Assembly (NCBI RefSeq): GCF_001654865.1
Contig: NZ_LXEO01000066.1
Span: 1 to 64,000, forward strand
Origin: Buttiauxella noackiae ATCC 51607
GTDB lineage: Bacteria > Pseudomonadota > Gammaproteobacteria > Enterobacterales > Enterobacteriaceae
DNA length: 64,000 nt
Direction: 5' to 3'
Part shown: positions 13,218 through 59,487 of the stretch, piece after piece
Position numbering within the stretch: position 1 is the first letter of the stretch
Layout: every line of letters starts with the position of its first letter
Notes under the pieces: generated by a model
The model's input: the letters and a program-made list of their open reading frames with translations, nothing else
Told to the model about the DNA's origin: nothing
Databases searched by the model: none
Translations under genes and position numbers: made by a program

Positions 13218-13223
13218 TATCAG

Positions 13224-26414: not shown

Positions 26415-26422
26415 GATATGTT

Positions 26423-26469: not shown

Positions 26470-26595
26470 ATAAAATTGGCATGTTTTTAATTGTTCGCCA
26501 TTGTCTCTGTTTGTGTTTTTAATTGTCTATAATCAATCAGTTATGAGGTTGTTTTTGTTTCTGATTGGTTCTCTTATTTCCCCATTGTACTATCC

Positions 26596-26642
26596 TTACC
26601 TGACCCGTTACCTGACCCGAAATGGGCATCGGGTCAGGTAAC
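26596..26642. repeat. 12-base direct and inverted repeats before the integrase gene
   Basis: TTACCTGACCCG occurs head-to-tail at 26596-26607 and 26608-26619 and again inverted at 26630-26641. The second and third copies make a 13-base perfect stem with a 10-base loop, ending 24 bases before the integrase ATG. They are candidates for integrase arm-type sites or for an operator that controls integrase expression. Confidence 0.75.
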
Positions 26643-26666
26643 GCTTATTCTTAGAAAGGTAAACTC

Positions 26667-27983: not shown

Positions 27984-27987
27984 GAGC

Positions 27988-28602: not shown

Positions 28603-28757
28603 CGGGCGAGGCCCACAGCTTTCGCCTGTGCCTGATTTTGTTTGAGTTGCTGCTCAATTTTTTGCACAGAAACACCCGTTTCGATTGCAGTTGAGCTGGC
28701 AACGGAACGGTAGATTTGAGTTTTAGTGATCTGACTATGTACTGTTTTTTTTGTCAT
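28599..28757 (-). CDS. Small protein convergent with Fic, antitoxin candidate
   Basis: A 52-residue basic protein, 'MTKKTVHSQITKTQIYRSV...' to '...KAVGLAR', predicted mostly helical with a Gln-rich C-terminal helix. It contains 'SSTAIETGV', which gives Ser-x-x-x-Glu but with Thr instead of Gly/Asn after the Glu, so it nearly meets the inhibitory motif of VbhA/YhfG-type Fic antitoxins. The ATG at 28757 follows GAGG at good distance. The gene overlaps the last four bases of fic in convergent orientation, unlike the usual upstream antitoxin. The function is inferred only from position and this partial motif. Confidence 0.55.
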   Translation of the reverse strand: MTKKTVHSQITKTQIYRSVASSTAIETGVSVQKIEQQLKQNQAQAKAVGLAR

Positions 28758-28937
28758 GTTAAAAGCCTCGTTTTGCTGCAATGATTCTAGTTCGAATGGG
28801 GATTGCCCGCAAGGCTGCTATCAATAGGGATGTAACGATGAAAATCCCTTACTCGGCATAAAATAATTTTTAGACTCATCTCACCATCTTGATACAATAG
28901 TTTGTAATTTATAAGGTTAATCTCTTGGTGGTGATAG

Positions 28938-29993
28938 ATGGATAGTAATCCAAATTTTTTTGATGCTACTGATCTTTTTAAGATTCCTGAGCTATTTGAT
29001 ATCCCCGATGGTCTTCATTGCGTTGATGCTTATACTAAAAAATTTCATATTAGACTGGAAGATATCATCGCCGCTTGGTTGGATAATAGAATAAAACTGT
29101 ATGTTAATCTTCGTTCTGAATACTGTCGAATAAACCGTTATGCTAATAAAAAAGAACACCGCTACGATACTTTTGATATCAGTATCGGTAGAGACTTCTA
29201 TCAACATGAAAGAAGTCCACAGGCTACAGTAAGGAAATTCATACCTTGCAACCAATCTGAAATAAAAGAGGATATAAATTTCCAAGGGAGTAGTTTTTAT
29301 AAATATGTTTACAATGGATATGCTAGTGGATTTTGGCGACTACAGCTCACAAACACTACTCATCTAGTAAAAGTTAATTACAATCTTAAAAATGCTAATG
29401 TATCGTGGGATGAAATTCCAGGAGAGGTTAGAGTTTTGGGGCGAGATAATAAGGACCATTTGGTTTTTAATAAAGATATCTTTGTCTCTGATGAATGTTT
29501 GTATATTGATAGCTCTGGGTGTCAAGAACTATCTCAACATCTCAATGTTGAAGAAAATGAAATCCATGAGGTAGAGGGGTATTATATACAGAGTTTCATT
29601 GCTGTAATTTTGCTTAAAATAAATTTTTCAAAAGAAAATGGTTTGATTAACCGTACAAAGACAGCAAATATATTGAATGCGTATCGTAAGGAGATGTGTG
29701 TATCTTTAGAGCCGGTTAGCGGGAAAAGTATATCCAGATGGATTAACGGCTCTTTAATAGAGAAAGGGCAGTTATCTTTAGATGTTGAGGATGGCCGACT
29801 ATCTGAAGCAAAGAATGATATTATATATTTGATTATTAAACAATGTCATGCAGATCGTACATCAAAAGAGTTGGCTGTTTTATTGGGCAAGGAAATTGAT
29901 GGCTATCAATTACAGCAGAGAATTACATTGCCGCAATTAGTGAATTATCTTGATACGCTCATTACCAAATATGTATCACTGAATTTGAAATAA
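28938..29993 (+). CDS. Orphan protein of the satellite element
   Basis: A 351-residue protein, family not recognised. The N-terminal part has 'PELFDIPDGLHCVDAYTKKFHIRLEDIIAAWLDNRIKLYVNLRSEYC', a layout like a small winged or adaptor domain, and the C-terminal half is helical ('LINRTKTANILNAYRKEMCVSLEPVSGKSISRWINGSLIEKG'), possibly with an HTH. No membrane segment, signal peptide or known catalytic motif is visible. The gene is strongly AT-rich. It sits between the Fic pair and the alpA-type regulator, a slot often used for accessory genes in P4-like elements. A DNA-binding role is possible but only a guess. Confidence 0.68.
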   Translation: MDSNPNFFDATDLFKIPELFDIPDGLHCVDAYTKKFHIRLEDIIAAWLDNRIKLYVNLRSEYCRINRYANKKEHRYDTFDISIGRDFYQHERSPQATVRKFIPCNQSEIKEDINFQGSSFYKYVYNGYASGFWRLQLTNTTHLVKVNYNLKNANVSWDEIPGEVRVLGRDNKDHLVFNKDIFVSDECLYIDSSGCQELSQHLNVEENEIHEVEGYYIQSFIAVILLKINFSKENGLINRTKTANILNAYRKEMCVSLEPVSGKSISRWINGSLIEKGQLSLDVEDGRLSEAKNDIIYLIIKQCHADRTSKELAVLLGKEIDGYQLQQRITLPQLVNYLDTLITKYVSLNLK

Positions 29994-30070
29994 ATTTCTC
30001 AATAAGGTTCTCAATAGACAATAGCTTAATGGGTACCCATCTTCTTTAAATTTTGATTTGAATCGTACAA

Positions 30071-30099
30071 ACTGCCTCTACCGAAACAAAGGAGGCAGT
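30071..30099 (+). promoter_or_regulatory. Hairpin covering the ribosome site of the alpA-type gene
   Basis: ACTGCCTC (30071-30078) is perfectly complementary to GAGGCAGT (30092-30099). The 3' arm includes most of the Shine-Dalgarno GGAGG and ends at the base before the ATG. In mRNA this would hide the ribosome site; in DNA it is an inverted repeat that could bind a regulator. Confidence 0.6.
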
Positions 30100-30336
30100 A
30101 TGAGTACAACATCTATCATTCCAACCCCTGAACAGCGATTGCAAATCCTGCATGTTTACGGCGAAAAATGTGACCGACTGGTGCGGGAAAAAGAGCGCCA
30201 GTACATCACTTCGATTTCCCGGTCGACGGCCTGGAAGCTTGAAAAGGCTGGTAGGTTTCCTCAACGTAAATCACTTGGGGCTAAGTCGTGTGGCTGGTTG
30301 CTTAGCGATCTTCTTTACTGGATCAATGAACGCTAA
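30100..30336 (+). CDS. AlpA-family excisionase/regulator
   Basis: A 78-residue DNA-binding protein of the AlpA family, with a MerR-like helix-turn-helix: 'YITSISRSTAWKLEKAGRFPQRKSLGAKSCGWLLSDLLYWINER' (about 35-78). AlpA of CP4-57 activates the integrase gene and promotes excision, and P4 Vis acts similarly. The ATG at 30100 is chosen because AGGAGG lies at the correct distance. Longer frames to the left lack a ribosome site and would run through the hairpin. The ribosome site lies inside a perfect inverted repeat, so its translation may be gated. Confidence 0.88.
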   Translation: MSTTSIIPTPEQRLQILHVYGEKCDRLVREKERQYITSISRSTAWKLEKAGRFPQRKSLGAKSCGWLLSDLLYWINER

Positions 30337-30460
30337 GGGTCATAAGTTTTTTAGTATTTTTTATCTGATGGTTGGGAATGCATCTTGCTATTTCCACTAT
30401 TAATAGCGGAATAGCAACTCAACCGGAGGTACTTTTAACATTTAATGATGATGAGGTTTT

Positions 30461-31870
30461 ATGTCGGGAAATCGAGAGTTCCCCATACGTATGCTTCCCG
30501 CAATAGTGGGGAATGCAATTTATGAGGTAGTCCAACATACTCAGGCACCACTTCCCATGGTTGTTGCAGAGATGCTTGGTGTCATTTCTCTTGCTTGTCA
30601 GAACCGAATTGATGTTTGCAGGCTGAATAATCTGCGTGGTCCGACATCACTTTTTATTGTGACAATTGCTGAATCAGGGGAAAGGAAAAGCACGGTAAGT
30701 AAGTTGTTAATGAAGCCGATTTACCAGATGGAAGAACGGTTATTTGAGCAATATAAACAGGAACTAATCAACTGGCAATATAACGTAAAGATTTTCAAGG
30801 CGGAAGAGAAAGCCTTGATGTCAAAACTGAAGTCAGATATCCGTTGTGGCAAAGATCCAACTATGGCACGTGAATGTCTGAAAATACTGCAAGATAGTTA
30901 TCCTGTGGAGCCTGTCAGATATAAGTTGACGTTCAATGATACCACACCAGCGGCGATAAAAGAGTACCTTTGTGGAGAATGGCGATCAGTTGGAATTATA
31001 TCAGATGAGGCAGGTACGGTTTTTAATGGTTATACACTAAACGAATTACCGTTTGTAAACAAAATGTGGGATGGGTCGATTTATTCAGTCGAAAGGAAAA
31101 ATGCACCTGAGATATTAATAAAAAATGCCAGATTGACATTATCCCTTCAGGTTCAGCCTGTAGTTATCAATAGGTATATTGAAAGAAAAGGGGATGTAGC
31201 AAAAGGGATAGGTTTTTTTGCTCGTACACTTATTTGTCATCCATTTTCAACACAAGGATATAGACAAATAACTAATCCTGTTGTCTCAAGTGAACATCTG
31301 CCAGTGTTTCATGAGAGATTAATGGAGATCGTCAACGAAAGTATTATCAACAAAGATGAACGCATCTGCCTACATTTCTCGCCAGAAGCAGGACAGAGAT
31401 GGGTTGCATTTTATAATAAAGTTGAAACAGAAATGCGCTTAATCGGCTTTCTGTCAGACTTTAAAGATTACGCATCTAAAGTCGCTGAAAATATGGCAAG
31501 GATCGCCGCATTATTACATTATTTCAATGGTAATGAAGGTGACATATCTCTTACCGCCGTTGAAGCTGCTGTAGAGATAAGCGCATGGTACGTAGAGGAG
31601 TATATTAAATTATTTTCCAAACCACAGGAGTTAGATCTGATCAATACAGATGCAAATGAGCTTTATTGGTGGATGAAAGAATACTGTAGTCAAAATTTTG
31701 TACCTTACATCAGGAAAAACACAATATTGCAATATGGACCCAATCGGTTCAGAGAGCGTAATAAAACGAACGAATTACTAAGCACACTCTACTCACAAGG
31801 GAAAATAAGCACCTATAAAAAAGGGAAAACTCTTTTTATTCAACCAATGGATAGTTTGGCGGTTATTTAA
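30461..31870 (+). CDS. DUF3987 (YfjI-like) putative helicase/replication protein
   Basis: A 469-residue protein of the DUF3987 family found beside AlpA in CP4-57-like elements (E. coli YfjI). A P-loop is visible as 'AESGERKST' (about 70-78) after 'TSLFIVTI', and Walker B-like 'VGIISDEAGTVFNG' (about 175-188). This suggests a RecA-like ATPase used in element replication, possibly with a lost primase part, since the P4 alpha protein is much longer. The C-terminal part ends in a small winged-helix-like region ('RNKTNELLSTLYSQGKISTYKKGKTLFIQP'). The ribosome site is weak ('GATGAGG' four to five bases before the ATG). Confidence 0.82.
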   Translation: MSGNREFPIRMLPAIVGNAIYEVVQHTQAPLPMVVAEMLGVISLACQNRIDVCRLNNLRGPTSLFIVTIAESGERKSTVSKLLMKPIYQMEERLFEQYKQELINWQYNVKIFKAEEKALMSKLKSDIRCGKDPTMARECLKILQDSYPVEPVRYKLTFNDTTPAAIKEYLCGEWRSVGIISDEAGTVFNGYTLNELPFVNKMWDGSIYSVERKNAPEILIKNARLTLSLQVQPVVINRYIERKGDVAKGIGFFARTLICHPFSTQGYRQITNPVVSSEHLPVFHERLMEIVNESIINKDERICLHFSPEAGQRWVAFYNKVETEMRLIGFLSDFKDYASKVAENMARIAALLHYFNGNEGDISLTAVEAAVEISAWYVEEYIKLFSKPQELDLINTDANELYWWMKEYCSQNFVPYIRKNTILQYGPNRFRERNKTNELLSTLYSQGKISTYKKGKTLFIQPMDSLAVI

Positions 31871-32051
31871 GGTGGCGTTTAGGTAAATAATGCTAACAGG
31901 CTGCTTGTTAACTATTTCTAATTACAGAGTTGTTTTTATGCAGTCCTTACAGGCTGGGGTTGCCTTTTATCAGAATTTAAATGTTGGAAAGGTAATATAT
32001 AGTTAATTGCAACTATCATATAAATAACCTTCAATATTCTATTACTAATAC

Positions 32052-32073
32052 ATCCCTGTGATCTCACAGGGAT
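32052..32073. promoter_or_regulatory. Perfect 10-base dyad before the YagK/YfjJ-type gene
   Basis: ATCCCTGTGA (32052-32061) and TCACAGGGAT (32064-32073) form a perfect inverted repeat with a 2-base centre, 20 bases before the start codon. It is probably an operator or a replication-initiator binding site. The short spacer makes an RNA hairpin less likely. Confidence 0.55.
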
Positions 32074-32093
32074 AATAAAGTCAGAGATATATT

Positions 32094-32714
32094 ATGGAAC
32101 TATACCAAGGTACTCATGGCGCACACATCCTCGCTTACCGAGAAAGAATTGCGCAGACAGTTAGTAACGCAATCAATCAGTTTCCACGTACTATGGCATT
32201 AAGAGTAGATCTTCACTATCCACCTATTTGGGATAATGGTGATACGATATGCTGTTACCCTAATCTTCAATCAGGAGCAATATCACGCTTTCTTGATTCA
32301 CTTAAAGCAATTCTGGAGGCGTATGAATATCGCAGAAAATTTGCAGGGATCAGGATTCATTACAATGTAGTACGAAATATTTGGGCAAGAGAATACTCAC
32401 AGAGTGGTAAATGCCATTTCCATATTTGCTTATTCTTTAACAAGAATGCTTACTACCATTTGGGTCATCTTAAGCAGACTGGCACATTAAGCAATATGAT
32501 TATAAGAGCCTGGTACAGTGCTCTGGACCTAGAGCTTGAAGATTGTCGTGATCTTGTTCACTTTCCAGATAACTGCAAATACATACTGGATATAAAGGAT
32601 CCTGACTTTGATATCATTTACAATGATCTAATTAACCGTCTGGATTACCTGACAAAACTCGACACTAAAGTCTTCGGTGAAGGGGACCGAAACTTCGGGT
32701 GTAGTCGAGGATAA
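32094..32714 (+). CDS. YagK/YfjJ-domain (inovirus Gp2-like) replication protein
   Basis: A 206-residue protein with the YagK/YfjJ C-terminal domain, related to replication proteins of filamentous phage and satellites. The hallmark metal-binding HUH-like segment is 'YSQSGKCHFHICLFFNKNAYYHLG' (about 101-124) with the HxH-like 'FHIC', preceded by 'AGIRIHYNVVRNIWAREY'. A partner strand 'TMALRVDLHYPPIWD' lies near 34-48. In such elements it probably initiates or assists rolling-circle type replication, though this is not shown for CP4-57. It lies downstream of the DUF3987 gene after a 223-base gap with a dyad. A terminator follows the stop. Confidence 0.8.
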   Translation: MELYQGTHGAHILAYRERIAQTVSNAINQFPRTMALRVDLHYPPIWDNGDTICCYPNLQSGAISRFLDSLKAILEAYEYRRKFAGIRIHYNVVRNIWAREYSQSGKCHFHICLFFNKNAYYHLGHLKQTGTLSNMIIRAWYSALDLELEDCRDLVHFPDNCKYILDIKDPDFDIIYNDLINRLDYLTKLDTKVFGEGDRNFGCSRG

Positions 32715-32730
32715 TTTATTATGGAAAACA

Positions 32731-32764
32731 ATGGCCTTTATTTTGATAAGGCCATTTAAATTTT
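32731..32764 (+). terminator. Terminator after the YagK/YfjJ-type gene
   Basis: ATGGCCTTTAT (32731-32741) pairs with ATAAGGCCAT (32746-32755) with one bulged T and a short loop, followed by TTAAATTTT. It closes the satellite core transcript. Confidence 0.75.
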
Positions 32765-32933
32765 ATGGACTAAAAGTAAATTAATGGTTTTTTAAAGTAC
32801 TCTTTCCATTTTACCACCTTATCCACAGCATAAAAGATTCATTTAGTCACGAGTTGTAAGGTTTATATATGAAGATTTTATATTTGAGCTAATATCCTTT
32901 ATAAAATAACATATTTCAGTGAAAAAACAGACT

Positions 32934-33521
32934 TCATCGTGATGCTGCTTTCAAATATGCATAACCGCCGGAAATATCAGATGCTGCATCAGCTAGTAAA
33001 ACACGCCCTTTCCTATCATGTGCAAGTTCCGCGTAACTCTGTGGCGGCCACTTATAGCGAACATAAGCGTCAGCTACTGCTAAACGAAAACGAAGACCAA
33101 GATCCCAACCCTGCAGCCAACCAAGCTCCGGTAAGTGAGGTGATAATATCTCGTGTGCTTTTTTAGATAGTTTAGATTTCAGAATTTTACTGTGAATATC
33201 ATTATAAAATTTTTCGATCACGTTATATCCACTTTCACCTCCAGACCTAATAGCAAGAGCCAGAAGAAAACACTTAAGTATGTCTTCCTGATTTTCTTGA
33301 ATATCATTGGATATATTTATAAGAGCTGCATTCCAAGGATTTACACCAAAGGTGATAACAAGTGGTGATATCCAGCCCAGTGTCTCAGCGATTTCATAGA
33401 GTAGACTTGCTCGAGAAATTATACCCATAACATCCATTCTAAGGAGTAGTTCAGGCCTACGTATTAATCCCTGTAGCCATGAATCTGCCAAATTAGAATT
33501 TCTATCATTTATAAATGACAT
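32934..33521 (-). CDS. Orphan helical protein between the satellite core and the defence operon
   Basis: A 195-residue protein on the strand opposite its neighbours; family not recognised. It appears all-helical, with 'LQGLIRRPELLLRMDVMGIISRASLLYEIAETLGWISPLV' near the start and 'SPHLPELGWLQGWDLGLRFRLAVADAYVRYKWPPQSYAELAHDRKGRVLLADAA' towards the end. The pattern resembles the C-terminal helical repeats of larger NTPase or effector proteins, so it may be a remnant of a longer gene. There is no good ribosome site before 33521, which also favours truncation. No membrane segment is present. The 480 bases upstream show no continuation in frame. Confidence 0.5.
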   Translation of the reverse strand: MSFINDRNSNLADSWLQGLIRRPELLLRMDVMGIISRASLLYEIAETLGWISPLVITFGVNPWNAALINISNDIQENQEDILKCFLLALAIRSGGESGYNVIEKFYNDIHSKILKSKLSKKAHEILSPHLPELGWLQGWDLGLRFRLAVADAYVRYKWPPQSYAELAHDRKGRVLLADAASDISGGYAYLKAASR

Positions 33522-34002
33522 TGTAGTGGTTTACTGAATTTGGGCATCCGAATAGAGGTATACCGCGTCCGCATTTGGCACTACTAGCCCACAGGTTGAG
33601 CCCTGTCTGAAGTGAGCGTGAAGTGGAAGTTTGAGATGGTATAGCTTCTAAAGGCTTCCCTGCCATACAGATTGTCGACATTCTAAGCGAATCGGTAAGT
33701 TTCATCATGCAGTGGTCAGATCTTCATCTCCAGTGCAGTTGCTCGCATCGTAACGTAGCAGTAGTACATCATCATTCTGAAGCGATTGACCCATCAGGCA
33801 TTTGCACACCTTAAAAATTCTCTGCTGGTGAAGCACACTTATCCAATAGTTCTTATTATTTAAATCAATGAGTTAATTTTGATGGTGATTTGGTTTTAAC
33901 CCTCGCGATTTAGAAGTATTATTTTGAGATTAATCCACTTGTCCTGCTTTTCGTCGCCATTCTTTCGGTGTATGTGAAAAGTCATTTTTAAGGTTACTTT
34001 CC
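33522..34002. other. Intergenic region before the Shango operon
   Basis: 481 bases without a convincing gene. A short frame on the minus strand (33505-33708) is composition-like noise or a remnant. The right half (33840-34000) is AT-rich and should hold the defence operon promoter, with AAGG nine bases before the first ATG. Mixed composition suggests a past insertion or deletion joint. Confidence 0.45.
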
Positions 34003-36312
34003 ATGGAGTTATGGATATTTATAGCGGTGATTTATTTAGTTTATTTTTTGTTTTTCAAAAAGAAAAAGCATAAACCCGCAGAAACTTATGCCTCCAGAAC
34101 CGTGGAAGCGCCACCTAAAGAGTGGCTTGCTGACAACAAGAAAAAAGAGGCTGTTGTGCGAAACGGTGACAGTGAAGATGATAATTTGGCAACCTTTACG
34201 CTGAGCAGTGGCCGGAGTGTCGAGTATCAAATAACAACCACTCAACGCCAGAATCCCTCAAAAACTACGGGTGCCTTGGCTCGATGGGTGCTGCCGGCCG
34301 AGGTGATTACTGTCGGTGGTATAGAGATTACCGGTGGTCATTTCTACTTCGGACAGCGTATGAAGCCAGCCGGGCAGAACTTAAGCAATTATTATGATGA
34401 TGGCAGCGAGGCATCTTTAATTGACGACACGCTTAAGATATACCCCAAACCTTACATTTACGAAGATAGTTCATTGGGGTACTGGCCCAGTTTTTCCTCG
34501 CTTTCACCTGTGGCACGCGGCGCGTATCTCAGCTGGCTTGCCAGCGACAGGTGTGACGCTTCCTGCCCTGTTGGTTATGTTTTTATTTATCTGTATGGTC
34601 TCGAAAGACGGGCGCTTGTTGACAGCCTGGACGAAAATACATCTGACGCTGAGTTCTGCGATCTGTTCAAAGAAATCCGCCGTCTAAGATCGGTATTCAT
34701 TGAAAACCGTTCCTTCCGGAACTACTCCTCCCAGTTACTCGAAGCAATGTCCATCCTTCGCCCGGACGTTAATCTTGCTGCAGACCTCGACAATGAGATG
34801 GGGTTCAGCAACGGTATGCAGTTTAAGCTAGCACTGGCAAAGGCTGTGGATGCTGGATTACCCGTATCAGCTGATCTGGCGCTAACCTGGATAACAAACC
34901 ATACAGAGTATACGTTGCGAACGCCCGCCCGCCGATGCGCGAAAGAATTTGCTGCGCTTTTCAAACGGCGTTATATCCTCAAATATGGTGAGGGTATGTT
35001 AGTTAAGCCGAATAAAACGCGACTGAGGCTGGATTACACACCAGCAAGCCCCAATCTGCGCGGCATTCGCCTTCAGGTTCCCAACCTGCCTGACCCTAGT
35101 GCGTTAAAGGGCCCTGTCCAGAAAATTATGACACTTGCAGATATCTGCACAGACGAACTGGATGCTTACAGCCGCTATCTTGGTAGGAAAGGTACGTCAG
35201 AAAATGATATTGCTGCAATTATGTTGCTGCCTGAAGAAATCATCGATGAAAGCGCAGGAAAAATTTCAAAGACATTCCAACGTTGGGCTAATGAAGTGAT
35301 CGCAGATCATGAGGGGTTAACTTCGGTTGCTAAATTTTGGGAGCATATTGGTGCCAGTTGCCCAGAGAAAATCAATAAAAAAGAGGCTGACCTGATGCAG
35401 GCCTTTGCGCTTAAGATGGGTTACAGCTTGGCTCCTGACCCGTTTTATCACCATGTGAAGGCAGAAGTTGACGGCGTTCTGGTTCTATTTACTGCCGGTG
35501 AGCGCACACCTTTTTCACCGTCTCCAGAGTTTATCTCAGCTGTGATGACACTCAGGCTGGGAGCGATGGTAGCCTTAACCGATAACAGCCTTGATCAGGC
35601 CGAGCGAAAAGTGCTGGAAAACGCCATCGATCACAACCCCAGCTTCACAGATGATGAAAAACGTTCCCTGCATGCGTATTTAACGTGGCAGCTTCATACC
35701 CCGGCCAACATGACGGGAATGAAAAACAGGATTGCGCTGCTGAGTGTGGCGGAAAAATCAGCTGTGGGTCGGATTATCGTTAGTGTCGCCTGCTCGGATG
35801 GCAGTATCGCGCCTACCGAAATCAAACAGCTAGAGAAGATTTATTCAAGCTTGGGTCTGGATCCCTCATCTGTTTCCGCCAATATCCATCAGCATTCCAC
35901 AGCTGAAATTACACCCGTTTCTTCTGTTCCAGCGAGTCAGTCAACGGCAGAGTTCACGCTGGATGCTAACGTACTGGCTCGCCACGAATCGGCCACAGAT
36001 GATGTCCGTAAATTACTGAGCACGATTTTCACTGAAGACGAACTGGAACTGCCAGAAAGCGTTCCCGTCTCCTTATTGGAGGAGGGGAGTCTTGACTCTG
36101 CACATAGCCAACTTTATCGCAGGTTGCTGGAGAAGGAAAAGTGGTCCCGGAAAGAGGCGACAGAACTGTGCGGTAATTGGAATTTGATGCTCGGTGGTGC
36201 GCTTGAGGTGATCAATGACTGGTCCTATGCAGCGGTTGATGCGCCAGTGCTGGAAGATACTGATGATGATATCTGGGTAGACCTGGAAATTGCCAAAGAA
36301 TTAGAGGGATAG
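34003..36312 (+). CDS. sngA: TerB-domain protein, Shango component SngA
   Basis: A 769-residue protein. A single N-terminal membrane helix (about 3-18, 'LWIFIAVIYLVYFLFF') is followed by a Lys-rich stop, placing the bulk in the cytosol. A TerB_N-type region covers about 90-290 ('WVLPAEVITVGGIEITGGHFYFGQRM', 'YWPSFSSLSPVARGAYLSWLASDR'), a TerB-like helical core is near 540-625 ('DNSLDQAERKVLENAIDHNPSFTDDEKRSL', 'ACSDGSIAPTEIKQLEKIYSSLGL') and a TerB_C tail follows. With the BrxD-like ATPase and DEAD/DEAH helicase behind it, this is the layout described for the Shango anti-phage system. It starts the operon; sngB begins three bases after its stop. Function is assigned from architecture, not from a database match. 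Confidence 0.82.
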   Translation: MELWIFIAVIYLVYFLFFKKKKHKPAETYASRTVEAPPKEWLADNKKKEAVVRNGDSEDDNLATFTLSSGRSVEYQITTTQRQNPSKTTGALARWVLPAEVITVGGIEITGGHFYFGQRMKPAGQNLSNYYDDGSEASLIDDTLKIYPKPYIYEDSSLGYWPSFSSLSPVARGAYLSWLASDRCDASCPVGYVFIYLYGLERRALVDSLDENTSDAEFCDLFKEIRRLRSVFIENRSFRNYSSQLLEAMSILRPDVNLAADLDNEMGFSNGMQFKLALAKAVDAGLPVSADLALTWITNHTEYTLRTPARRCAKEFAALFKRRYILKYGEGMLVKPNKTRLRLDYTPASPNLRGIRLQVPNLPDPSALKGPVQKIMTLADICTDELDAYSRYLGRKGTSENDIAAIMLLPEEIIDESAGKISKTFQRWANEVIADHEGLTSVAKFWEHIGASCPEKINKKEADLMQAFALKMGYSLAPDPFYHHVKAEVDGVLVLFTAGERTPFSPSPEFISAVMTLRLGAMVALTDNSLDQAERKVLENAIDHNPSFTDDEKRSLHAYLTWQLHTPANMTGMKNRIALLSVAEKSAVGRIIVSVACSDGSIAPTEIKQLEKIYSSLGLDPSSVSANIHQHSTAEITPVSSVPASQSTAEFTLDANVLARHESATDDVRKLLSTIFTEDELELPESVPVSLLEEGSLDSAHSQLYRRLLEKEKWSRKEATELCGNWNLMLGGALEVINDWSYAAVDAPVLEDTDDDIWVDLEIAKELEG

Positions 36313-36315
36313 TTA

Positions 36316-37626
36316 ATGTCTGTAACACGCATAAGAGTTAAAGAACGCGACGCTATTATTCAGTCACTGAAGTCGGGAGTAACGCCAAGGATAGGCATTC
36401 AGCATATTCAGGTTGGTCGCATGAATGAGATAACCGCTCTCCACCAAGATATTGAGAGGATTGCTGACGGTGGCGCAAGCTTCAGACTTATCATCGGTGA
36501 ATACGGATCCGGCAAAACGTTCTTTCTGAGTGTAGTGCGCTCTATTGCGCTGGAGAAAAAGCTAGTATCAGTCAGTGCCGACCTATCTCCCGACAGACGT
36601 ATTCACTCATCGGGAGGTCAAGCGCGTAATCTCTACTCAGAGCTGATGAAAAACATGTCCACCCGAAATAAACCTGATGGCAATGCGTTACTTAGCGTTG
36701 TGGAAAGGTTCGTCACTGAGGCAAGGAAGGAAGCTGATGCAGATGGCTCCCCAGTTTCATCGGTTATTCATAAACGCCTGGCTGCTTTGTCAGACATGGT
36801 GGGCGGATATGACTTTGCTAAAGTCATCGATGCATTCTGGCGCGGGCACGAGCAGGATAATGAAACGTTAAAATCCAATGCCATTCGCTGGCTGCGCGGA
36901 GAATACACTACCAAAACCGATGCCCGTAACGATCTTGACGTTCGGACTATTATCTCAGATGCTTCGTTCTTTGATGCGTTGAAGTTGATGAGCCTTTTTG
37001 TTCGTCAGGCAGGCTACGCCGGATTATTGGTCAGTCTCGACGAGATGGTGAACCTCTATAAGCTGAATAACACGCAGGCGAGAACAGCGAACTACGAACA
37101 GATTCTGCGGATCCTGAATGACTGTCTGCAGGGGTCTGCCGAGAATATTGGTTTTATTCTTGGCGGTACTCCCGAGTTCCTGTTTGATCCGCGTAAAGGA
37201 CTTTACAGTTACGAAGCGCTGCAATCGCGTCTGGCAGAAAACCGGTTCGCACAGAAAGCTGGGGTAATTGACTACTCATCACCCACGCTGCATCTGGCAA
37301 GTCTCACTCCAGAAGAACTCTATATTTTACTGAAAAACCTCCGCCACGTTTATGCTGGCGGAGAGCCCGAGAAGTACCTGGTATCAGATGACGCACTCAC
37401 CGGTTTTCTACACCACTGTAGTAAAACCATCGGGGACGCTTACTTCCGTACGCCCCGGAATACCATCAAAGGGTTCCTCGACATGCTGGCCGTGCTGGAA
37501 CAAAACAACATGATGGACTGGCAGATGCTTATCTCGGGTGTGGCGATTGAGGATGACAGGCCCAGCGACATGGATGATGCCATTGCGCAGGAAGACGATG
37601 ACGGCCTAGCCAACTTCACATTATGA
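36316..37626 (+). CDS. sngB: BrxD-like AAA ATPase (DUF2791), Shango component SngB
   Basis: A 436-residue ATPase of the BREX BrxC/BrxD-like group. Walker A is GEYGSGKT (61-68) in 'FRLIIGEYGSGKTFFL', and Walker B is 'AGLLVSLDEMVNLYKL' (about 235-250). A sensor region 'IGFILGGTPEFLFD' and the arginine-containing 'YFRTPRNTIKGFLDML' typical of the family follow. In BREX types 2 and 6, BrxD pairs with a BrxHI helicase; Shango uses the same pair together with a TerB protein. The gene is three bases after sngA, and its stop overlaps the sngC start (ATGA), so the three are coupled. The C-terminus is acidic and likely flexible. Confidence 0.85.
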   Translation: MSVTRIRVKERDAIIQSLKSGVTPRIGIQHIQVGRMNEITALHQDIERIADGGASFRLIIGEYGSGKTFFLSVVRSIALEKKLVSVSADLSPDRRIHSSGGQARNLYSELMKNMSTRNKPDGNALLSVVERFVTEARKEADADGSPVSSVIHKRLAALSDMVGGYDFAKVIDAFWRGHEQDNETLKSNAIRWLRGEYTTKTDARNDLDVRTIISDASFFDALKLMSLFVRQAGYAGLLVSLDEMVNLYKLNNTQARTANYEQILRILNDCLQGSAENIGFILGGTPEFLFDPRKGLYSYEALQSRLAENRFAQKAGVIDYSSPTLHLASLTPEELYILLKNLRHVYAGGEPEKYLVSDDALTGFLHHCSKTIGDAYFRTPRNTIKGFLDMLAVLEQNNMMDWQMLISGVAIEDDRPSDMDDAIAQEDDDGLANFTL

Positions 37627-39821
37627 GCAGCGCGTACGATCGTCTCGACCCTCGCGTTCGTAAGTGGGTTTATAAGCAAGGCTGGCCTGATTTAAGACCT
37701 CTGCAAAAGAGCGCTATCCCGGCAATATTAGCCCGTGACCGCGACGTGTTAATCAGTGCCGGTACCGCCGCGGGTAAAACGGAGGCATTCTTTTTGCCTG
37801 CCTGCTCAGCGGTTGCAGATATCACAAGTGGGTTTGGCATTGTATATATCAGCCCGCTTAAGGCACTCATTAACGATCAGTACCGTCGTCTTGAGAGTCT
37901 TGGTGAAGCGCTGGATATGCCAGTGACACCTTGGCACGGTGATATACTGCAAAGTAAAAAGAAGAAGGCCCGGACAAGCCCCTCAGGCATTTTACTCATT
38001 ACGCCAGAATCTCTTGAGTCTTTACTTATAAACTCATCGGGTTGGCTTAAGCAGGCATTTTCGCCAGTCGCCTACATTGTTATTGATGAGTTTCACGCGT
38101 TTATTGGTACAGAGCGCGGTATGCAACTGCTCTCCCTGCTCAACAGAATCGATCATGTACTTAGTCGTCACGCAAACCCGATTCCCCGCGTTGCGTTAAG
38201 CGCCACGCTGGGAGAACTGGATAAAGTGCCTGAGCTGTTGCGCCCGGATAAGCTACTGCCATGCGAAACCGTGACAGACGACAGCAGCAAGGCGACATTG
38301 CAGGTGCAGGTTAAAGGCTACATGGAGTCGGTGAGTGAAGAAGGAGAAGAGCCGCAGAACTCAGCAGAAAAACACGTCTGCGCTGACATTTTCAGACTCT
38401 GCCGTGGCGACTCCCATTTGGTCTTTGCAAACAGTCGAAGGCGTACTGAAAGCATTGCCGCAACACTGAGTGACATGTGTGAGGAACATATTGTTCCGAA
38501 TGAATTCTTTCCCCATCACGGATCCCTGGCCAGGGAATTACGCGAAACACTAGAAGCCCGTCTACAAAAAGGGAATTTACCCACAACAGCTATCTGTACC
38601 ATGACGCTTGAGCTGGGTATTGATATCGGTAAGGTGCAGTCGGTTATCCAGGTTACACCCCCGCATTCCGTATCAAGTCTGCGCCAACGCATGGGGCGGT
38701 CAGGGCGGCGCGACTCCCCGTCGGTGCTGAGGATGCTCATTACTGAAGATGAACTTACTGCAACCAGTAGCATCGTGGACCAACTGCGGCTGCAGATGGT
38801 TCAGTCGATGGCAATGATTAGGCTGATGATCTCTCAGCGATGGTTCGAGCCGGCTGATACTTGCCAGATGCATTACTCTACGCTGTTGCACCAGATTCTG
38901 GCGATCACTGCGCAATGGGGTGGTGTTCGAGCCGATCAGCTGTGGTCACAATTGTGCCAGACCGGCCCATTCCGGAACGTCGAGTTGACCGATTTCAAAA
39001 GTCTGCTTAAGCATATGGGGGCATGTGGACTGCTCACACAACTTGCTAGCGGAGAGATGGTTATCGGGGCTGAAGGGGAGAAGCTGACTAACCATTACAC
39101 GTTTTACGCCGTGTTTAATACGCCAGAAGAGTTCCGCATTGTCACGGGAAGCCGAACCCTTGGCACAGTGCCTATAGACTCCCCGCTTTTGCCTGAACAG
39201 CACATCATCTTCGGCGGGCGGCGCTGGAAAGTGACTGAGATAGAAGTGGAAAAAAAAGTTATCTATGTTGAGGCGACCAAAGGTGGTCAGCCACCAAAGT
39301 TTAGTGGTGGAGGTATGTCTGTTCATGATGTTGTTCGCCAGGAGATGCTCGCAATCTACAGAGAAAATGACTATCGCATCGCGGTAGGTAACCAGAGAGT
39401 TGATTATGCGGATGCTGCCGCCAGAAACCTCTTTGCGGAAGGCCGTGACAACTTCCAGCGTTTCAATCTGCAAAACACCCATTTTATTGCTAGCGGTCAG
39501 CACTGTTACGTACTCCCCTGGATGGGCGATAAAGTCGTCAATACGATGACGGCTTTGCTCCTACGTAGTGGCTTCAAAGCTAATTCATATGCAGGTGTGA
39601 TAGAAGTCGGGGACTCAATTGTAGCCTCAGTCCAGCAAGCGCTTAAAGAAATACTATTGTCGGGTTTACCTTCAGAATTTGAGCTTGCTGCGGATGTTCC
39701 AGACAAATATCTGGATAAATATGATGAGTATCTACCCGAATCCCTGCTTGCGAAAGGATATGGTGCGAAAGCTTTTGATGTTGAAGGTACACGTACCTGG
39801 CTGCAGGAAAATCTTCAGTAA
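37623..39821 (+). CDS. sngC: Lhr/BrxHI-like DEAD/DEAH-box helicase, Shango component SngC
   Basis: A 732-residue superfamily 2 helicase. Motif I is 'SAGTAAGKTEAFFLP' (about 44-58), motif Ia is 'YISPLKALINDQ', motif II is 'IDEFHAF' (DEFH), motif III is 'LSATLGE', motif IV-V is in 'CTMTLELGIDIG' and motif VI is 'QRMGRSGRR'. The region beyond 420 is winged-helix and Lhr-type core, consistent with an ATP-driven nucleic acid translocase. In Shango it acts with the TerB protein and ATPase to stop phage infection; the trigger and mechanism are not known to me. All motifs look intact, so the system should be functional. The start overlaps the sngB stop by four bases. Confidence 0.87.
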   Translation: MSSAYDRLDPRVRKWVYKQGWPDLRPLQKSAIPAILARDRDVLISAGTAAGKTEAFFLPACSAVADITSGFGIVYISPLKALINDQYRRLESLGEALDMPVTPWHGDILQSKKKKARTSPSGILLITPESLESLLINSSGWLKQAFSPVAYIVIDEFHAFIGTERGMQLLSLLNRIDHVLSRHANPIPRVALSATLGELDKVPELLRPDKLLPCETVTDDSSKATLQVQVKGYMESVSEEGEEPQNSAEKHVCADIFRLCRGDSHLVFANSRRRTESIAATLSDMCEEHIVPNEFFPHHGSLARELRETLEARLQKGNLPTTAICTMTLELGIDIGKVQSVIQVTPPHSVSSLRQRMGRSGRRDSPSVLRMLITEDELTATSSIVDQLRLQMVQSMAMIRLMISQRWFEPADTCQMHYSTLLHQILAITAQWGGVRADQLWSQLCQTGPFRNVELTDFKSLLKHMGACGLLTQLASGEMVIGAEGEKLTNHYTFYAVFNTPEEFRIVTGSRTLGTVPIDSPLLPEQHIIFGGRRWKVTEIEVEKKVIYVEATKGGQPPKFSGGGMSVHDVVRQEMLAIYRENDYRIAVGNQRVDYADAAARNLFAEGRDNFQRFNLQNTHFIASGQHCYVLPWMGDKVVNTMTALLLRSGFKANSYAGVIEVGDSIVASVQQALKEILLSGLPSEFELAADVPDKYLDKYDEYLPESLLAKGYGAKAFDVEGTRTWLQENLQ

Positions 39822-39834
39822 CCTGGATTTATAA

Positions 39835-39873
39835 TCAGGGTATAAATAAATCGTCTATACCCTGAATTTTTTT
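39835..39873 (+). terminator. Terminator of the Shango operon
   Basis: TCAGGGTATA (39835-39844) pairs perfectly with TATACCCTGA (39856-39865), followed by a run of T ending at 39873. It starts 14 bases after the helicase stop and also lies just beyond the stop of the convergent small gene. Confidence 0.85.
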
Positions 39874-40000
39874 ATTTCCCTGTGGATTTACTAGGCTTTA
39901 GCCCCGGAGTATTACCCGGAGTATCTTTATTATCACGTCGACGTTGATCAGGTTTTCCTGTCGATTTGGCAATTGGTTTTGGACCCGGTTTAAGACCCAT
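39872..40000 (-). CDS. 42-residue Lys/Pro/Gly-rich small protein facing the Shango operon
   Basis: A short frame of 42 codons starting MGLKPGPKPIAKSTG and ending GLKPSKSTGK. AGGA lies eight bases before the ATG, and the stop touches the shared terminator, so the gene has all expected signals. The product is very basic (about 10 Lys and 3 Arg, few acidic residues), has no Cys and no membrane segment, and repeats KPxxKSTGK at both ends. It resembles small disordered nucleic-acid binding or modulator peptides, but no family is recognised. It is convergent with the defence operon and could be its regulator, a phage-derived trigger or an unrelated passenger. Confidence 0.55.
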   Translation of the reverse strand: MGLKPGPKPIAKSTGKPDQRRRDNKDTPGNTPGLKPSKSTGK

Positions 40001-40387
40001 GATAGTTATCCTTTAGAGGTTTAAGAGGGAAGCCCTCTATATCGATATATTGGATATTTTGAAAATTTTCAATGGGGTTGATCAACGTTCCAATGATTAA
40101 CTCACTACTGTGAGCAATGTGACACGTTAACTGGGCTTAAAGTCCGCTGTGAGCGATGAGCAGACGTAACCACCATACCGTTGCAATAATAAACAGAGCT
40201 CATCATGAGTTTCTTCACTGAACCTGAACATTTTATAAAAGCATCCGTTAAATAAGACTTTTCTACTCCTCCGCCCTCTCAAAACTCAACCATGTACTAA
40301 TGTTACTCAAAGTGTTTCGACAAGTGTTTCTTGTTGTTTATTTGTGTCAACGCGCTATTTCCTTATGCGGCCTTGCAGAGATGACTT
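40001..40387. other. Intergenic region between the defence island and the autotransporter
   Basis: 387 bases without a convincing gene. A small hairpin AGAGGG-AAG-CCCTCT lies at about 40025-40039. A hairpin related to repeats at 62506-62573 occupies 40141-40167 (AGTCCGCT against AGCAGACG). The autotransporter promoter should be in the right half. No copy of the tRNA-Ile2 core is present here. Confidence 0.5.
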
Positions 40388-43300
40388 ATGAATAATATTT
40401 ATCGTTTGGTATGGAGCCATGTGGCGAACAGTTTTATTGCCGTTGCAGAAACATCCCGAACAGGGAAAAAAGGATCGAAGACCGGGCGTGGAGGCCGAAA
40501 ATTATTAACTACTGCGCTGATTGTTGCCGGTGTTTATGGCCCGACAGCCAGCGCTGTAGATGTGACGTGGAGCGCGGCTTATCCCAACTACCTGTTTCTA
40601 CCGGTTTACGATGCGGTTAAAGAGACGGGTTACGCGTTTACCATTGATAGTCAGCCACTGACAAATCATTACGCCCCAGGCACTGAACTGAATATTACTG
40701 GCTCGATACCCAACATTGCCACGGGGACAAACGGCAGCAGTACGGGGGTCACGGTACTGAATGCGCTTCCTGACCCCGGTGGAACCGGGGCGGGGACCGA
40801 TCCAAACCGTATCATCACTATCGAAGCCACGGATTCAACCGGGGCTGCTATGCCAATAACAGCTGCAAACATTGATCAGTACACGTATTCGCCTTCTCCG
40901 GCCAGACCTCAGGAAAGCCAGGAACTGAACGTCGAAGTGCCAGGTCTTGACGGCAGTTATCAAGTCATCAGCATTTATGATTCCTCGACGTTTATTGCTG
41001 CCGATGACACGGCAGTCAGCGACATGTTGTTGCCGGTTTACGACCCAAACTCGATTCGTATCTTTAATAATTTCGGTATCGCGTTGGTAGCGGCAACCGG
41101 CGGGCAGGCCAATATCAATGTGGGTTCAAGCGATGCGAATGCGCCGATTGCGGCAGCTGCAAATACCATTGACCTGTTGGCTAAAAATTCTGTGCTGGCA
41201 AAAGCGGACGGCAGCGGGAGTGCGACCAGCCGAACCGAATGGCGTTCCGATAACTTTATCCATTTCCGCCCGGCGATCGTGCTGTCATCTGATACACAAA
41301 ATCTTGAAGCACAAAGTGCGAAATACGATTTCACCATCACGCTGCCCCACTACGAGCAGGTCGGAAATAAGGCTCTGCTACTGGGGAATAAAGACTTCGT
41401 TATTCATTCTTCCACTGACATTGCAGATGTTAATGATTTCCTGACAGGCCAGGGGGCTTATGCTGGTAAACCGCAGATCCAGTACTGGCTGACGGCGGGT
41501 GCAACAGTCAATGGCGAGGTGATTGACTCGTCTGTTGAAGCGCAAAACACCTACGACGCGATTATTAGCGGCATGTTGGCACAAGAGGAAAATACCAGTA
41601 TCAACCTGACCTACCATGTCTGGGATGACAAAGGCGTACACAACAACAACGCCACGGTTTCAACTGGGGATTTAAACGTTATATATGCCACAGGTGCGAA
41701 TGCGTCTGGTTTAGTCACCAGCGACGGGAGCCTGGCGGTTGACGGGGCATCGGCGGTGATGCGTGGGGACAATGGTGCCATCATCACAAACGACGGGGCA
41801 ATCAACGCCTGGCGCAGCAGCGGCAGTAGCCCAGACTCTGTTGGTATGCTGACGACGGACGCCACGGCCATCAACAATGGCACGCTCAACGCGGGTCTGT
41901 TTATTGAAAAGGATGGCAGCAACCAGAACGTTTCTAATGCGGGCAGCACAGGCATGCAGGGCAGCGGTAACAGTACGCTGACCAACAACGGTCATATCAA
42001 TGCGGCGATTACTGACTCCACCACCAACGGTGCCGTGGGCATTCGCGCGTCAGGCACCACCACGGTTTCGAATACGTTAGCAGGTACCATCGCACTGGCT
42101 GGCAACAGTAATAATCAGTTCGGCAAAGCCGGCGGTTACGGCGTCTGGCTTGATCAAAGCGCCACATTCAATAATGCCGGTAATATCTACCTTGGCGTCA
42201 ATCCTGTCTTAAATTCCACCGCGCCAACACCGGTTCCGATGACCGGTGGCGATCTGTCGGCGGGGATTCGCACCCAAAGCACCGGCGCGGTGAACAACAC
42301 CGGTACGATAACCATTGCTGAAAATACCCGTAATGCCGCCGGGATCTCCATCGAAGGGGCGTCAGGGGCGGTGACCAACTCCGGCACGATCAATGTGTTA
42401 GGTAAACTGACTGACGGTTCAGCCGCTGCTAACTATGGTTTGAACGCAGTTGACAATGTCGGCACCGTGACGCACAGCGGCCTTATCAAGGTGGACGGTG
42501 ATAACAACATTGCCATCAACGTGCTGGCGCAAGATGCGGGGGCGGAAGTTACCACCACAACAGGAAGTGCGATTACGGTCGGGACCGCGGGGGATACCGG
42601 TGGCAGCGATGGCCAACCCTACACCTATCGTAACTATGCCGTTTATGCGGAAGGGCTAAACACCCAACACGCCCAGGTTAACCTGAACTCTACCATTCGC
42701 TTGTTATCTGCCGGGGCGATTGGTGTACATGCGCGTGGCGATGCGCGCATCGATATTGATTCAGCTTCGACGCTTTCTTTCGAAAACGTCAAACAGATGG
42801 GTTACTACGCCTGGGGTAATAAGGCGCAGATTAATCTCGGCAATGCGAATATCAATGATAACGGCCAGGCCGATTCTATTTTGTTTGCTGTGGATCACGG
42901 GGCGACTTTTGCCGGTAATAGCGGCGCTGCAGCGGGATATCAACTGACGGTATCAGGTAACAATGGAACCGGGATTATTGCCAATGGCGTCGATGAAACG
43001 ACCGGAACTAAAACCTCACTCACCACCGGAACCGCACAGATATTCGTCAATGGCGAAAAAGCGGTTGGTGTAAAAGTGACTGGCGGGGCAGTCGGCAATA
43101 TTAGTGACGGCGGGATTGTCCTGCAGCATAACAACACCACCGCAGTCCTGATTGACGGACGTAATTACAATATCGACGGCACCATTGATTCCGATGAAGT
43201 GCAGACTGACGTGACATCCAATGCCTCGATTACCAGCAGCCCTGGACAAAGTGGCATTGTTGGCTACAACGTGGCTCATGCGGGGGTGCTCAATCTAAGC

Positions 43301-46300
43301 GGCCCTGGCATTTCATTAAATGGCACCAACAGTACCGGGATCATTCTGCATGACAACGGTACCGCAACGGTCGGTGCGCCGGTGAATGTTTCTGGCACCA
43401 ATAATATTGGTGTCGATATTCAAAATAATGGCGTGCTGACGAATAACGGCATTATTAGCGTCAGCGGTGCCGCGAATAGCGGCAACGTCGGGGTTCGTGT
43501 GGGTGGAGCGAATGCGGTGGTTAACCGCCTCGGCACAGTCAATGCCTCAGGCGGTTTAGCGGCAGTCCAGCTCATTGGAGCAGGCGCGAATTTAACGGTT
43601 AACGGTACAGGCAACCAGATTACGGCCTCTGGTGGAGCCGATGGTGTAAGAATGGATGCCGGTGCCACCTCCTTTAACGCCTCGGATACGGTTATCGACA
43701 TTTCCGACAGCGGCGCGGGGATTAATAACAACGCCGATACCTCCAACATCAATCTTAGCAACGTCACGATTAACGCCTCCGATGGCCCTGCGATTCGCAC
43801 TGCCGTCACCTTTAGCGCGGAGGGCACGAACAACACCCTGAATGTTTCCGGCAATGGTGAAGGCTTTGCATTTATGCAGGCCGATGGTTCGGTGACTACG
43901 GGTTCTCTCACAATCGGCAGCGGCTACACCATTAATGGCAACGGGGCGGGGAGCGTCGGTATTCTGGCAAGAACATCCAACAATGTGAGTTCTGCTGCGA
44001 CTATCAACATGGACACCGGTGCGGGTTCAGCGATTGTGGCAACCGATGGTCTAAGCGGTAGCAGTCGTACGATTACCAACTCAGGCGTGATCACAAGCCT
44101 CGGAGCGGGTGCGCCAGTGATTAATGCCTCAGGCGCAGGAAATACTACCGTCATTAACAGCGGTACATTGCTGGCGGCAGATGCCACCGCACAAGCGATT
44201 CTGACCGGTACCGGCAATGACGTGGTGTCGTTAAATGGCCCGGGGGCAACGACCCGTGGGGAAATAACGCTGGGTAGTGGTAACGACCAGTTCAGCTGGA
44301 CGGCGGGTGATTACACGGGTGGAGTGACATTCACAGGTGCAGATGGCAATGACCGCGCCACGCTGGGTAACGTGTCGATGGCGAACGTGACGCATATTCT
44401 CAGTGAAGGCGGCACCAATAATACGTTAACTCTTAATAGTACGAATGAGGGAGCAACACCTGCATTATTGGGATCCTTTAGCGCGGACGACCTGGCAAAA
44501 GGCACCAATATTGGGTCGGGCTGGAGCACGCTGACTTTAGATGGCGATCCGACTGACGCACGGGTGGTGGATAATTTAACGCTCTCCGGCGTACAAACCA
44601 TCATTATCAACAATGGTGCCACGCTGCGTAGCGGCGACAGCGCCCCGACTGCGGGCGAGGCCACCATCCATAATTACAATGTCGCCACCTCGGGGGCGAC
44701 AAGCTTGCTGTCATTCGATGGTGCGGCTGACCAAATCTACAGCGGTGTTATCAGTGGCACGGGGGGCATGGAGCGCATCAATAGCGGTAATACTATTCTG
44801 CTCGGCGATAACACCTACACCGGGAATACTTTGATAGGCGCAGGATCGGAGCTGACTCTCGGCGATGGTAATACCACCGGCAAACTATCCGAGCAAACCA
44901 ACATTACTGATAACGGCATCCTGACGGTTAACCACTCTGATGCAGTGGCGCTCAATGGTGTTATTTCAGGAAGTGGTGCGTTCCGCCAGATTGGTAGCGG
45001 CGTCACTCGCCTCGGTGGCAATAACAGCTATGCAGGAACCACCACTGTTGAACAGGGTACCTTGCTAATTAACGGTGTGCAGAGTGGCACAGGGCTGACC
45101 ACCGTCAGGAGCGGCACTACGCTTGGCGGTTATGGCACCCTCGGCGGTGATGTTCTCTTCGAGAGTGGGACCACATTGCGCCCGGGTGATGACAGCCGTG
45201 GCAATGGCACCGGGATGCTGACCGTTCAGGGCGACCTGACACTTGCCAATGACACCAACAGCCAGTTCCAGTTGGGAGAAGTTTATACACCGGGTGGCTC
45301 ACTCAATGACCTGGTGGATGTGAAAGGTAACTTAATACTTGATGGTTCACTCAATGTGGCGCTGACCGCAGGTGGAGCCTTCCTGCCGGGTGTGTATCGC
45401 CTGTTTAACTATGGCGGTTCGCTCACCGACAACACCATGGATATCGTGTCGCTGCCACCCAACGACGCCAATAACTACGCTATCCAGACCAACATCGACA
45501 AGCAAGTTAACCTCGCGCTCAACTTTATTGACCCGACAAATCAGTTGCAGTTCTGGGATGGTGACCTTGATGTGACCCCAGGCAACCACGGGGATGGTAC
45601 GACAGGCAATGGCCGGGTTGACGGTGGCTTCGGTTACTGGACCAGCCTGATTTCAGGCGTCAGCAACAACTGGACGCAAGTCGATGGGGTCGGTAATGCG
45701 CCGTGGGCGCAGGATGCTTTTGCCGTATTCCAGGGGCTAGGCGACGTGGTGCGCGTGAGCAATGCGTTTGGCGATGTGCTCACTTCCGGGATGCAGTTCG
45801 CCAGTAATGGCTACATCCTGAATGCCGATCCTGCGCGCCCGGATTCGCAACTGTTCTTTGATGCGACTAACCCGCCGGGTAATTTCCCGCCGGATAACAG
45901 CTACGAAGCGCAAGGGGCGACTCATGCCAACAGCTATTTTGCGATTCGTGTGGGGAATGGTGCGACGGGAGCCGACATCACGACGCTTATCAACGTCAAC
46001 CTGGTGCAGAACGATCTGTCCGCTGGCAATATCCGTTTGCTGAAAACCGATCCCGGTCGCCTGATTTTAACCGGCAATAATGTGTTTACCGGTGGCGTGG
46101 AAGTCTGGAACGGCACGCTGAATATCACCAACGACAACGCGCTTGGTGCGACCAGTAACTCAGTGTTGTTGAAAAATGGTGCCACCTTCCAGGCGGGGGC
46201 CGATCTCACGACATCACGCTTATTCTTTGTCGATGGCGCTGCGGGCGCTGCGCTGGATGTATTCGGCCATACCTTTACCCCAACAGGCGTGATTGGCGGT

Positions 46301-59338: not shown

Positions 59339-59382
59339 AGCTGCCCCTTCGAAAACTCTTTTTGGAAAACGGAGGATTTGTG

Positions 59383-59457: not shown

Positions 59458-59487
59458 GATTAATTAATCCACCTGATTCACCGCGAG

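Follow-up and report, generated by a model that had tools for sequence, protein, structure and literature searches.

The 64,000-nucleotide stretch considered here, called the window, spans positions 1 to 64,000 of contig NZ_LXEO01000066.1 from Buttiauxella noackiae ATCC 51607, a genome assembled in 104 contigs. The window contains three adjacent genes that almost certainly constitute Shango (SngABC), an already known defense system. The genes are as follows:

34003-36312, plus strand: sngA, 769 residues; predicted N-terminal membrane anchor, TerB_N, TerB, and TerB_C domains (PADLOC SngA 1.3e-99; Pfam); structural model with a predicted local distance difference test (pLDDT) score of 78.9.
36316-37626, plus strand: sngB, 436 residues; BrxD-like P-loop ATPase (PADLOC SngB 4.2e-185).
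37623-39821, plus strand: sngC, 732 residues; BrxHI/Lhr-like superfamily 2 helicase (PADLOC SngC 2.4e-281).

An earlier sequence-only reading of this DNA described three coupled genes with the Shango architecture, and both parts of that description hold. Specifically, open reading frame (ORF) analysis finds three open frames at these positions, all on the plus strand, with a gap of +3 bases between sngA and sngB and of -4 bases between sngB and sngC, and the PADLOC Sng models span nearly the full length of all three proteins. Pfam finds TerB_N, TerB, and TerB_C in SngA, above cut-offs, BrxC_BrxD in SngB, and DEAD plus Helicase_C in SngC. A GTDB genome scan with SngB produced at least 508 stretches containing a relative, and we analyzed the best 80 of these loci. 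By tblastn, a SngA match, with its TerB region, precedes SngB and a SngC match follows it, on the same strand, in all 80, so the A-B-C arrangement is not due to chance. A frame is short or broken in four of the 80 (SngA in L060 and L080, SngC in L101; L088 is truncated by its contig). The +3/-4 spacing recurs in all 14 of the closest loci, which come from Pectobacterium, Photorhabdus, Pantoea, Erwinia, Serratia, Citrobacter, and others.

The Pfam label BrxC_BrxD, together with the matches of SngB to BrxD (1.3e-43) and of SngC to BrxHI (5.9e-116), would also suit a remnant or variant of type 2 bacteriophage exclusion (BREX), whose BrxD-BrxHI pair is homologous to SngB and SngC, with a TerB protein added. 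However, the Sng models score far above their BREX counterparts (614 versus 148 bits for SngB and 934 versus 386 bits for SngC), and SngB, at 146 bits, falls short of the 350 bits that NCBIfam requires for BrxD. The locus is thus assigned to Shango, which has a TerB protein. The TerB match ahead of SngB in 80 of 80 loci argues likewise, as does a Pfam scan of 29 island proteins, with the rest of the genome not searched, that found no PglX, PglZ, PglW, or BrxC. We consider a BREX origin extremely unlikely.

The sequence-only reading also proposed a membrane-anchored TerB protein, intact Walker motifs in the ATPase, and a full set of motifs in the helicase, and the alignments of homologs and the SngA model agree with it. 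In SngB, GEYGSGKT (residues 61-68) is invariant except at position 62, and LDE (241-243) is invariant, across 28 aligned proteins. SngC has AGKTE (50-54, motif I), DEFH (155-158), SAT (193-195), and QRMGRSGRR (355-363, motif VI), and with the exception of position 357 these columns are invariant or nearly so across 41 aligned proteins. The SngA N terminus consists of a hydrophobic helix (residues 2-18 in the model, with a Kyte-Doolittle mean of 2.3 over 17 residues) followed by KKKK. All three genes are under purifying selection. Compared with eight enterobacterial relatives, the ratios of nonsynonymous to synonymous substitution rates (dN/dS) are 0.028-0.052 for SngB, 0.062-0.099 for SngC, and 0.136-0.164 for SngA, values that are rough because synonymous distances are high. 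The ranking makes SngB the most and SngA the least constrained; the faster evolution of SngA would fit a role as the part that faces phage or host.

Open frames, conserved motifs, and low dN/dS bear directly on whether the operon, complete by sequence, is nonetheless silent or decayed in this strain. Decay does occur among relatives: 645 of 5426 E. coli genomes match the operon stretch, 437 of these retain at least 80% of the query at one place, and many copies are fragmentary. In several E. coli genomes (rows H108-H120), the only matching DNA is the 3' part of sngC or what lies downstream of it, with insertion sequence elements near some. Decayed Shango may be common in E. coli, and the rows that lack sngC need never have had it. 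For the Buttiauxella copy, with its intact frames and motifs, silence or decay is unlikely.

Shango copies in E. coli and on plasmids mostly share about 82% DNA identity with the Buttiauxella copy. SngB has matches in 30 of 394 genomes of the order, mostly at 56-64% identity, and in none of 11 genomes of the same genus. Among plasmids, 695 records match SngB, 684 of them over at least 80% of its length. Carriage by phage genomes was set aside, as 50,697 phage records hold one weak partial match to SngA.

Upstream of the operon lies a set of genes and sites that mark one end of a CP4-57-type island:

26423-26468, minus strand: the 46 bases at the 3' end of the tRNA, duplicated exactly; this island end is the one farther from the intact tRNA.
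26596 (minus), 26608 (minus), and 26631 (plus), spanning 26596-26641: three arm-type repeats, GGGTCAGGTAA; two more lie at contig positions 75536 and 75548.
26667-27983, plus strand: tyrosine integrase (Pfam Arm-DNA-bind_3 and Phage_integrase).
27970-28602, plus strand: Fic-family protein (Pfam), directly behind the integrase; PADLOC candidate single-gene defense PDC-S04 (2.4e-90).
28938-29993, plus strand: 351-residue core protein with no Pfam match; a hypothetical protein occupies the equivalent place in sister E. coli islands.
30058-30336, plus strand: AlpA-type regulator (Pfam Phage_AlpA, 1e-13).
30461-31870, plus strand: YfjI (DUF3987), 66% identical to YfjI of CP4-57 in E. coli K-12.
32094-32714, plus strand: YfjJ-type protein, 44% identical to K-12 YfjJ.
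32934-33521, minus strand: 195-residue ORF between the core and Shango, with no match in Pfam, NCBIfam, or PADLOC.

The tRNA is one that we take to be tRNA-Ile2 (CAU) from its sequence. ARAGORN finds no tRNA in the window; the intact gene, which ARAGORN labels Met(cat), lies beyond it at contig 75617-75692 and contains the second copy of the 46-base core. With up to three mismatches allowed, the core has only two copies in the genome, both of them exact and in minus-strand orientation: one at contig 26423 and the other, 49.2 kb away, at 75617. Three copies of the 11-base repeat GGGTCAGGTAA lie immediately within the left island end and two immediately within the right one, and there is no further exact copy in 83 kb of the contig, where about 0.04 would be expected of a random 11-mer; a copy with one mismatch lies at 78992, outside the island. 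Because these repeats cluster near both ends only, both ends fit a single integrase, and the unit measures 49.2 kb. An Rfam search of positions 26000-41000 gave no match at an expectation value (E) of 0.1.

The far end of this unit, beyond the window, carries a YfjP-type GTPase, DUF932, a WYL regulator, an AIDA autotransporter, an antirestriction protein, RadC, and DUF4942. The right-hand proteins closely resemble those of CP4-57 in K-12 (YfjP 81%, YfjQ 89%, YfjR 68%, LfgA 70%, and LfgB 81% identical), and AlpA, YfjI, and YfjJ link the left modules of the two islands. Since both modules are CP4-57-like, Shango is very likely cargo of a CP4-57-type island. The two islands differ in their integrases, which are only 23% identical, in their insertion sites, and in their cargo, with abpAB/rnlAB in CP4-57 standing where the Buttiauxella island has Shango. 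In addition, the integrase and the intact tRNA stand at opposite ends of the Buttiauxella island, which is not the arrangement of CP4-57 in K-12. AbpA and AbpB, which lie behind YfjJ in CP4-57, were considered as Shango homologs and rejected, as they have no meaningful similarity to SngA or SngC.

The sequence-only reading had placed Shango directly behind a P4/CP4-57-like core on a tRNA-Ile2 satellite element. The location behind integrase, Fic, AlpA, YfjI/DUF3987, and YfjJ is borne out. The tRNA association survives in part: copies of the tRNA core bound the island, while the window itself holds only the 46-base 3' fragment. The term satellite does not survive, in that the bounded unit is 49.2 kb long and its right part is the CP4-57 right module. 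P4-type satellites are compact, at about 10-15 kb, and carry the capsid-size and helper genes sid, psu, and delta. A compact satellite is ruled out by the core spacing, the restriction of arm repeats to the ends, and the right-module homologs. No P4 capsid-hijacking gene turned up in the Pfam scans of the 29 island proteins; those proteins were not run against PHROGs, and small ORFs fell outside the scans.

Two features could instead suggest that the locus is stably inherited in the lineage and is not mobile cargo: the integrase position and the metabolic and surface genes found within the 49 kb. Against this, SngB is missing from all 11 other genomes of the genus, attachment-site cores and arm repeats bound the region at both ends, and four of those genomes (G003, G004, G009, and G011) contain two core copies, separated by 10-33 kb. 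We judge a stable lineage locus very improbable. The missing SngB and the bounding cores and repeats are also at odds with an old backbone locus; neither outcome named as refuting the sequence-only reading, another family set such as BREX remnants or an old backbone locus, is thus borne out. The terminator-like sequence beside the core at 26423 resembles the sequence that follows the intact tRNA in four of the ten relatives listed (L031, L032, L035, and L036), as expected if the 49 kb had been inserted between terminator and tRNA. The remaining relatives have a different sequence after the intact tRNA, and one of the four (G003) has its own second core copy. In G003 and G011 (L037 and L034), DNA resembling the 3' part of the integrase gene also lies beside the far core copy.

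Taken together, we assign a probability of about 0.88 to the reading that the window carries a complete, probably working Shango operon as defense cargo of a 49.2-kb CP4-57-type island, which would have inserted at tRNA-Ile2 by means of its own tyrosine integrase. Plausibly, Shango is mobile with the island.

Comparison with sister islands in the E. coli strains ET350, ET896, and ET210, at the left core and at the cargo behind YfjJ, adds to this picture. All three share the left core of the Buttiauxella island and have the 46-base sequence next to the integrase, exactly in L186 and L187 and with one mismatch in L185. The Buttiauxella integrase is 97% identical to that of the sister island in ET350, and the cores of all three sister islands include a Fic gene. 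Behind YfjJ, the cargo is Zorya II in ET350, a type I restriction system plus a nuclease-helicase pair in ET896, and a tellurite-resistance-domain gene with Srf genes in ET210. The 195-residue Buttiauxella ORF has no similarity to the ORF at the equivalent place in ET350. The comparison shows one CP4-57-type core exchanging defense cargo, including Shango, Zorya II, and restriction, at a single place behind YfjJ.

Shango was reportedly described from E. coli by Millman et al. in 2022. A report of Shango in E. coli is cited in PMC10250203, in its passages on the Shango of P. aeruginosa PA14, located in cDHS1. By that published description, the PA14 system resembles the Buttiauxella operon in combining a TerB protein, a BrxD-like ATPase, and a DEAD/DEAH helicase; the PA14 copy sits in a chromosomal defense hotspot, whereas the Buttiauxella copy lies in a CP4-57-type tRNA-Ile2 island. 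According to the same passages, P. aeruginosa Shango reduces plaques modestly (10-100 fold) for many but not all phages, and cultures are well protected in liquid (PMC10250203). Shango as genomic-island cargo is already in print: PMC11096173, in its text and the legend of Fig. 8b, places Shango on genomic islands of E. coli and names the tRNA site for some of them. Those islands also carry Shango, but they are described for ApsAB-like operons and are likened to ours by description only.

How Shango acts can be approached through its relatives. In type 2 BREX, BrxD is an ORC-Cdc6 AAA+ protein proposed as a possible loader of BrxHI on DNA (PMC12839542, passages), and SngC has been grouped with BrxHI, DruE, and DpdJ as a defense helicase clade (PMC12278908, passages); passages of PMC12458937 make no mention of Shango. 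We found no published Shango mechanism in the open literature searched, and the Buttiauxella copy is in that respect one more example of a known system. From the published activity, the BrxD-BrxHI loader idea, the SngC clade, and this gap in the literature, we propose that SngB could be an AAA+ loader or switch that places the SngC helicase on phage DNA. SngA would tether the SngB/SngC machine to the inner membrane, its TerB modules serving as sensor or effector, and incoming or replicating phage DNA would be blocked. The proposal draws on domains, gene coupling, and the N-terminal anchor, and it is tentative, with the odds somewhat against it.

Several results weigh against this mechanism. 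With a pLDDT of 63, the SngB model is of poor quality, and the PDB matches to it, which include AAA+ and other P-loop proteins, all have E > 0.04; at this quality the model does not confirm an ORC/Cdc6-like fold. By sequence, SngB has no relative among solved structures at E 0.001. The SngA model has no full-length structural match; the TerB part alone resembles solved proteins, and weakly so (2h5n at E 0.15 and 2ou3 at E 1.1), with a sequence-profile match to 2h5n at E 0.0016. Finally, the N-terminal SngA anchor passes the hydropathy cut in 59 of the 80 loci and fails it in 21, in some cases because of a partial contig or the start codon chosen. Some Shango loci may thus lack the anchor.

TerB domains take their name from tellurite resistance, which lends some appeal to the idea that the operon mainly counters other mobile elements, plasmids included, or takes part in a TerB-linked stress response, rather than countering phages. 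SngB is itself common on plasmids, in the 695 records noted above, and the Pseudomonas homolog protects against phage in both plaque and culture assays (PMC10250203, passages). These points make the idea quite unlikely.

Similarity among Shango loci extends about 300 bases beyond sngC, and a small gene is located there on the opposite strand:

39838-39871: candidate two-way terminator between the sngC and microgene stops, an inverted repeat GGGTATA..TATACCC plus a T-run; recognized by eye, and similar in several relatives.
39872-40000, minus strand: microgene of 42 codons (39875-40000, stop at 39872-39874) with a Lys/Pro/Arg-rich product, a Shine-Dalgarno-like AAAGGAT, and a leader hairpin.

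The microgene lies within 600 bases of sngC in nine of the 14 closest Shango loci, with 86-100% protein identity, and the contig of L049 ends too early to show whether it is there. In L056 it is 5.7 kb away, and the other 66 loci have only two chance-level matches within 600 bases of sngC. Between the Buttiauxella copy and that of E. coli L040 there are 13 synonymous and no nonsynonymous changes; relative to the Agrobacterium copy, 27 of 30 synonymous sites and seven of 93 nonsynonymous sites have changed. Because synonymous sites differ widely and nonsynonymous sites hardly at all, the microgene is very probably a real protein-coding gene. It is strongly conserved from enterobacteria to Agrobacterium, while some copies elsewhere are 63-82% identical. 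By eye, most copies have a Shine-Dalgarno-like purine run, preceded in many enterobacterial copies by a short hairpin whose stem sequence varies.

The microgene often goes unannotated, as in the three Shango records opened, although in some plasmids it is listed as a hypothetical protein. Its product has no Pfam match and no PHROG match apart from a weak one (E 0.067) for a Vibrio homolog, and three accession numbers and the core peptide returned no mention in the open literature searched. Among plasmids, 1421 records match it, 1102 of them over at least 80% of the length; phage records yield one match. Specificity for Shango is ruled out: of 394 genomes of the order, 12 have a microgene match and 30 a SngB match, and the Buttiauxella genome alone has both.

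Copies elsewhere include those at loci L165-L171, L176-L179, L188, and L191. The last of these, in genome G688 from another family of the same class, follows a complete SngA-B-C at a distance of 1.2 kb and is again encoded on the opposite strand, with a 202-residue ORF in between. This Shango is divergent (SngA is 30% identical to that of Buttiauxella, and PADLOC gives 1.9e-183 for SngB and 4e-270 for SngC).

To compare neighborhoods, we considered ORFs of at least 100 residues within 4 kb of the microgene at 13 loci, our own excluded; 76 ORFs were scanned, and 25 of 64 families were listed. Ten stretches elsewhere in the same genomes (none for G287) served as controls, with 75 of 84 ORFs scanned and the nine omitted all from L200. 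A specific PADLOC defense gene lies within 4 kb at seven of 13 microgene loci versus none of ten controls (Fisher p = 0.007, or 0.019 if the broad OLD/GajA-like match at L190 is dropped). The seven, by our own reading of the matches, are L165, L168, L169, L170, L173, L190, and L191, and the genes involved belong to PDC-S21, Dsr1, PD-T4-5, PDC-S06, PDC-S37/Hhe, OLD/GajA-like, and Shango. Broad matches were left uncounted on both sides (mad3, near L167 and in two control ORFs, and RTasPolA, in one control ORF). Six of the 13 loci have no counted defense gene nearby. As the controls are ordinary chromosome, this contrast does not separate a link to defense from residence in islands.

The simplest reading is that the microgene is a mobile-element gene living in the same islands as defense genes. 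A defense role is possible. More specifically, an undescribed, self-contained mobile microgene, with its own hairpin, ribosome site, and terminator and a probably disordered product, could be an accessory shared by defense islands. It would be present with enterobacterial Shango and, independently, with the diverged Shango of another family, and elsewhere near Dsr1, an Hhe-like helicase, an OLD/GajA-like nuclease, and other defense genes, and its product might bind nucleic acid or act as guard or regulator of these systems; we regard this reading as doubtful. If functional, the microgene would exemplify a type of component whose shortness can let it escape defense-finding tools.

Other genes surround the locus. 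Three very large surface proteins are found around one tRNA-Ile2 site: a 2162-residue protein with YadA-like repeats recognized by eye (16687-23175, minus strand), a 3168-residue PATR autotransporter (40388-49894, plus strand), and a 1046-residue AIDA-type protein (L005, 6545-9685, plus strand). A two-component system and transporter stretch, also recognized by eye, occupies 6604-13285 and is missing from this place in seven of eight relatives' loci with both flanks matched. Finally, a cargo cluster at 51210-61095 (minus strand) encodes a MoxR ATPase, VWA/Bat-like proteins, a radical SAM/SPASM protein that is perhaps a sulfatase maturase, and a sulfatase.

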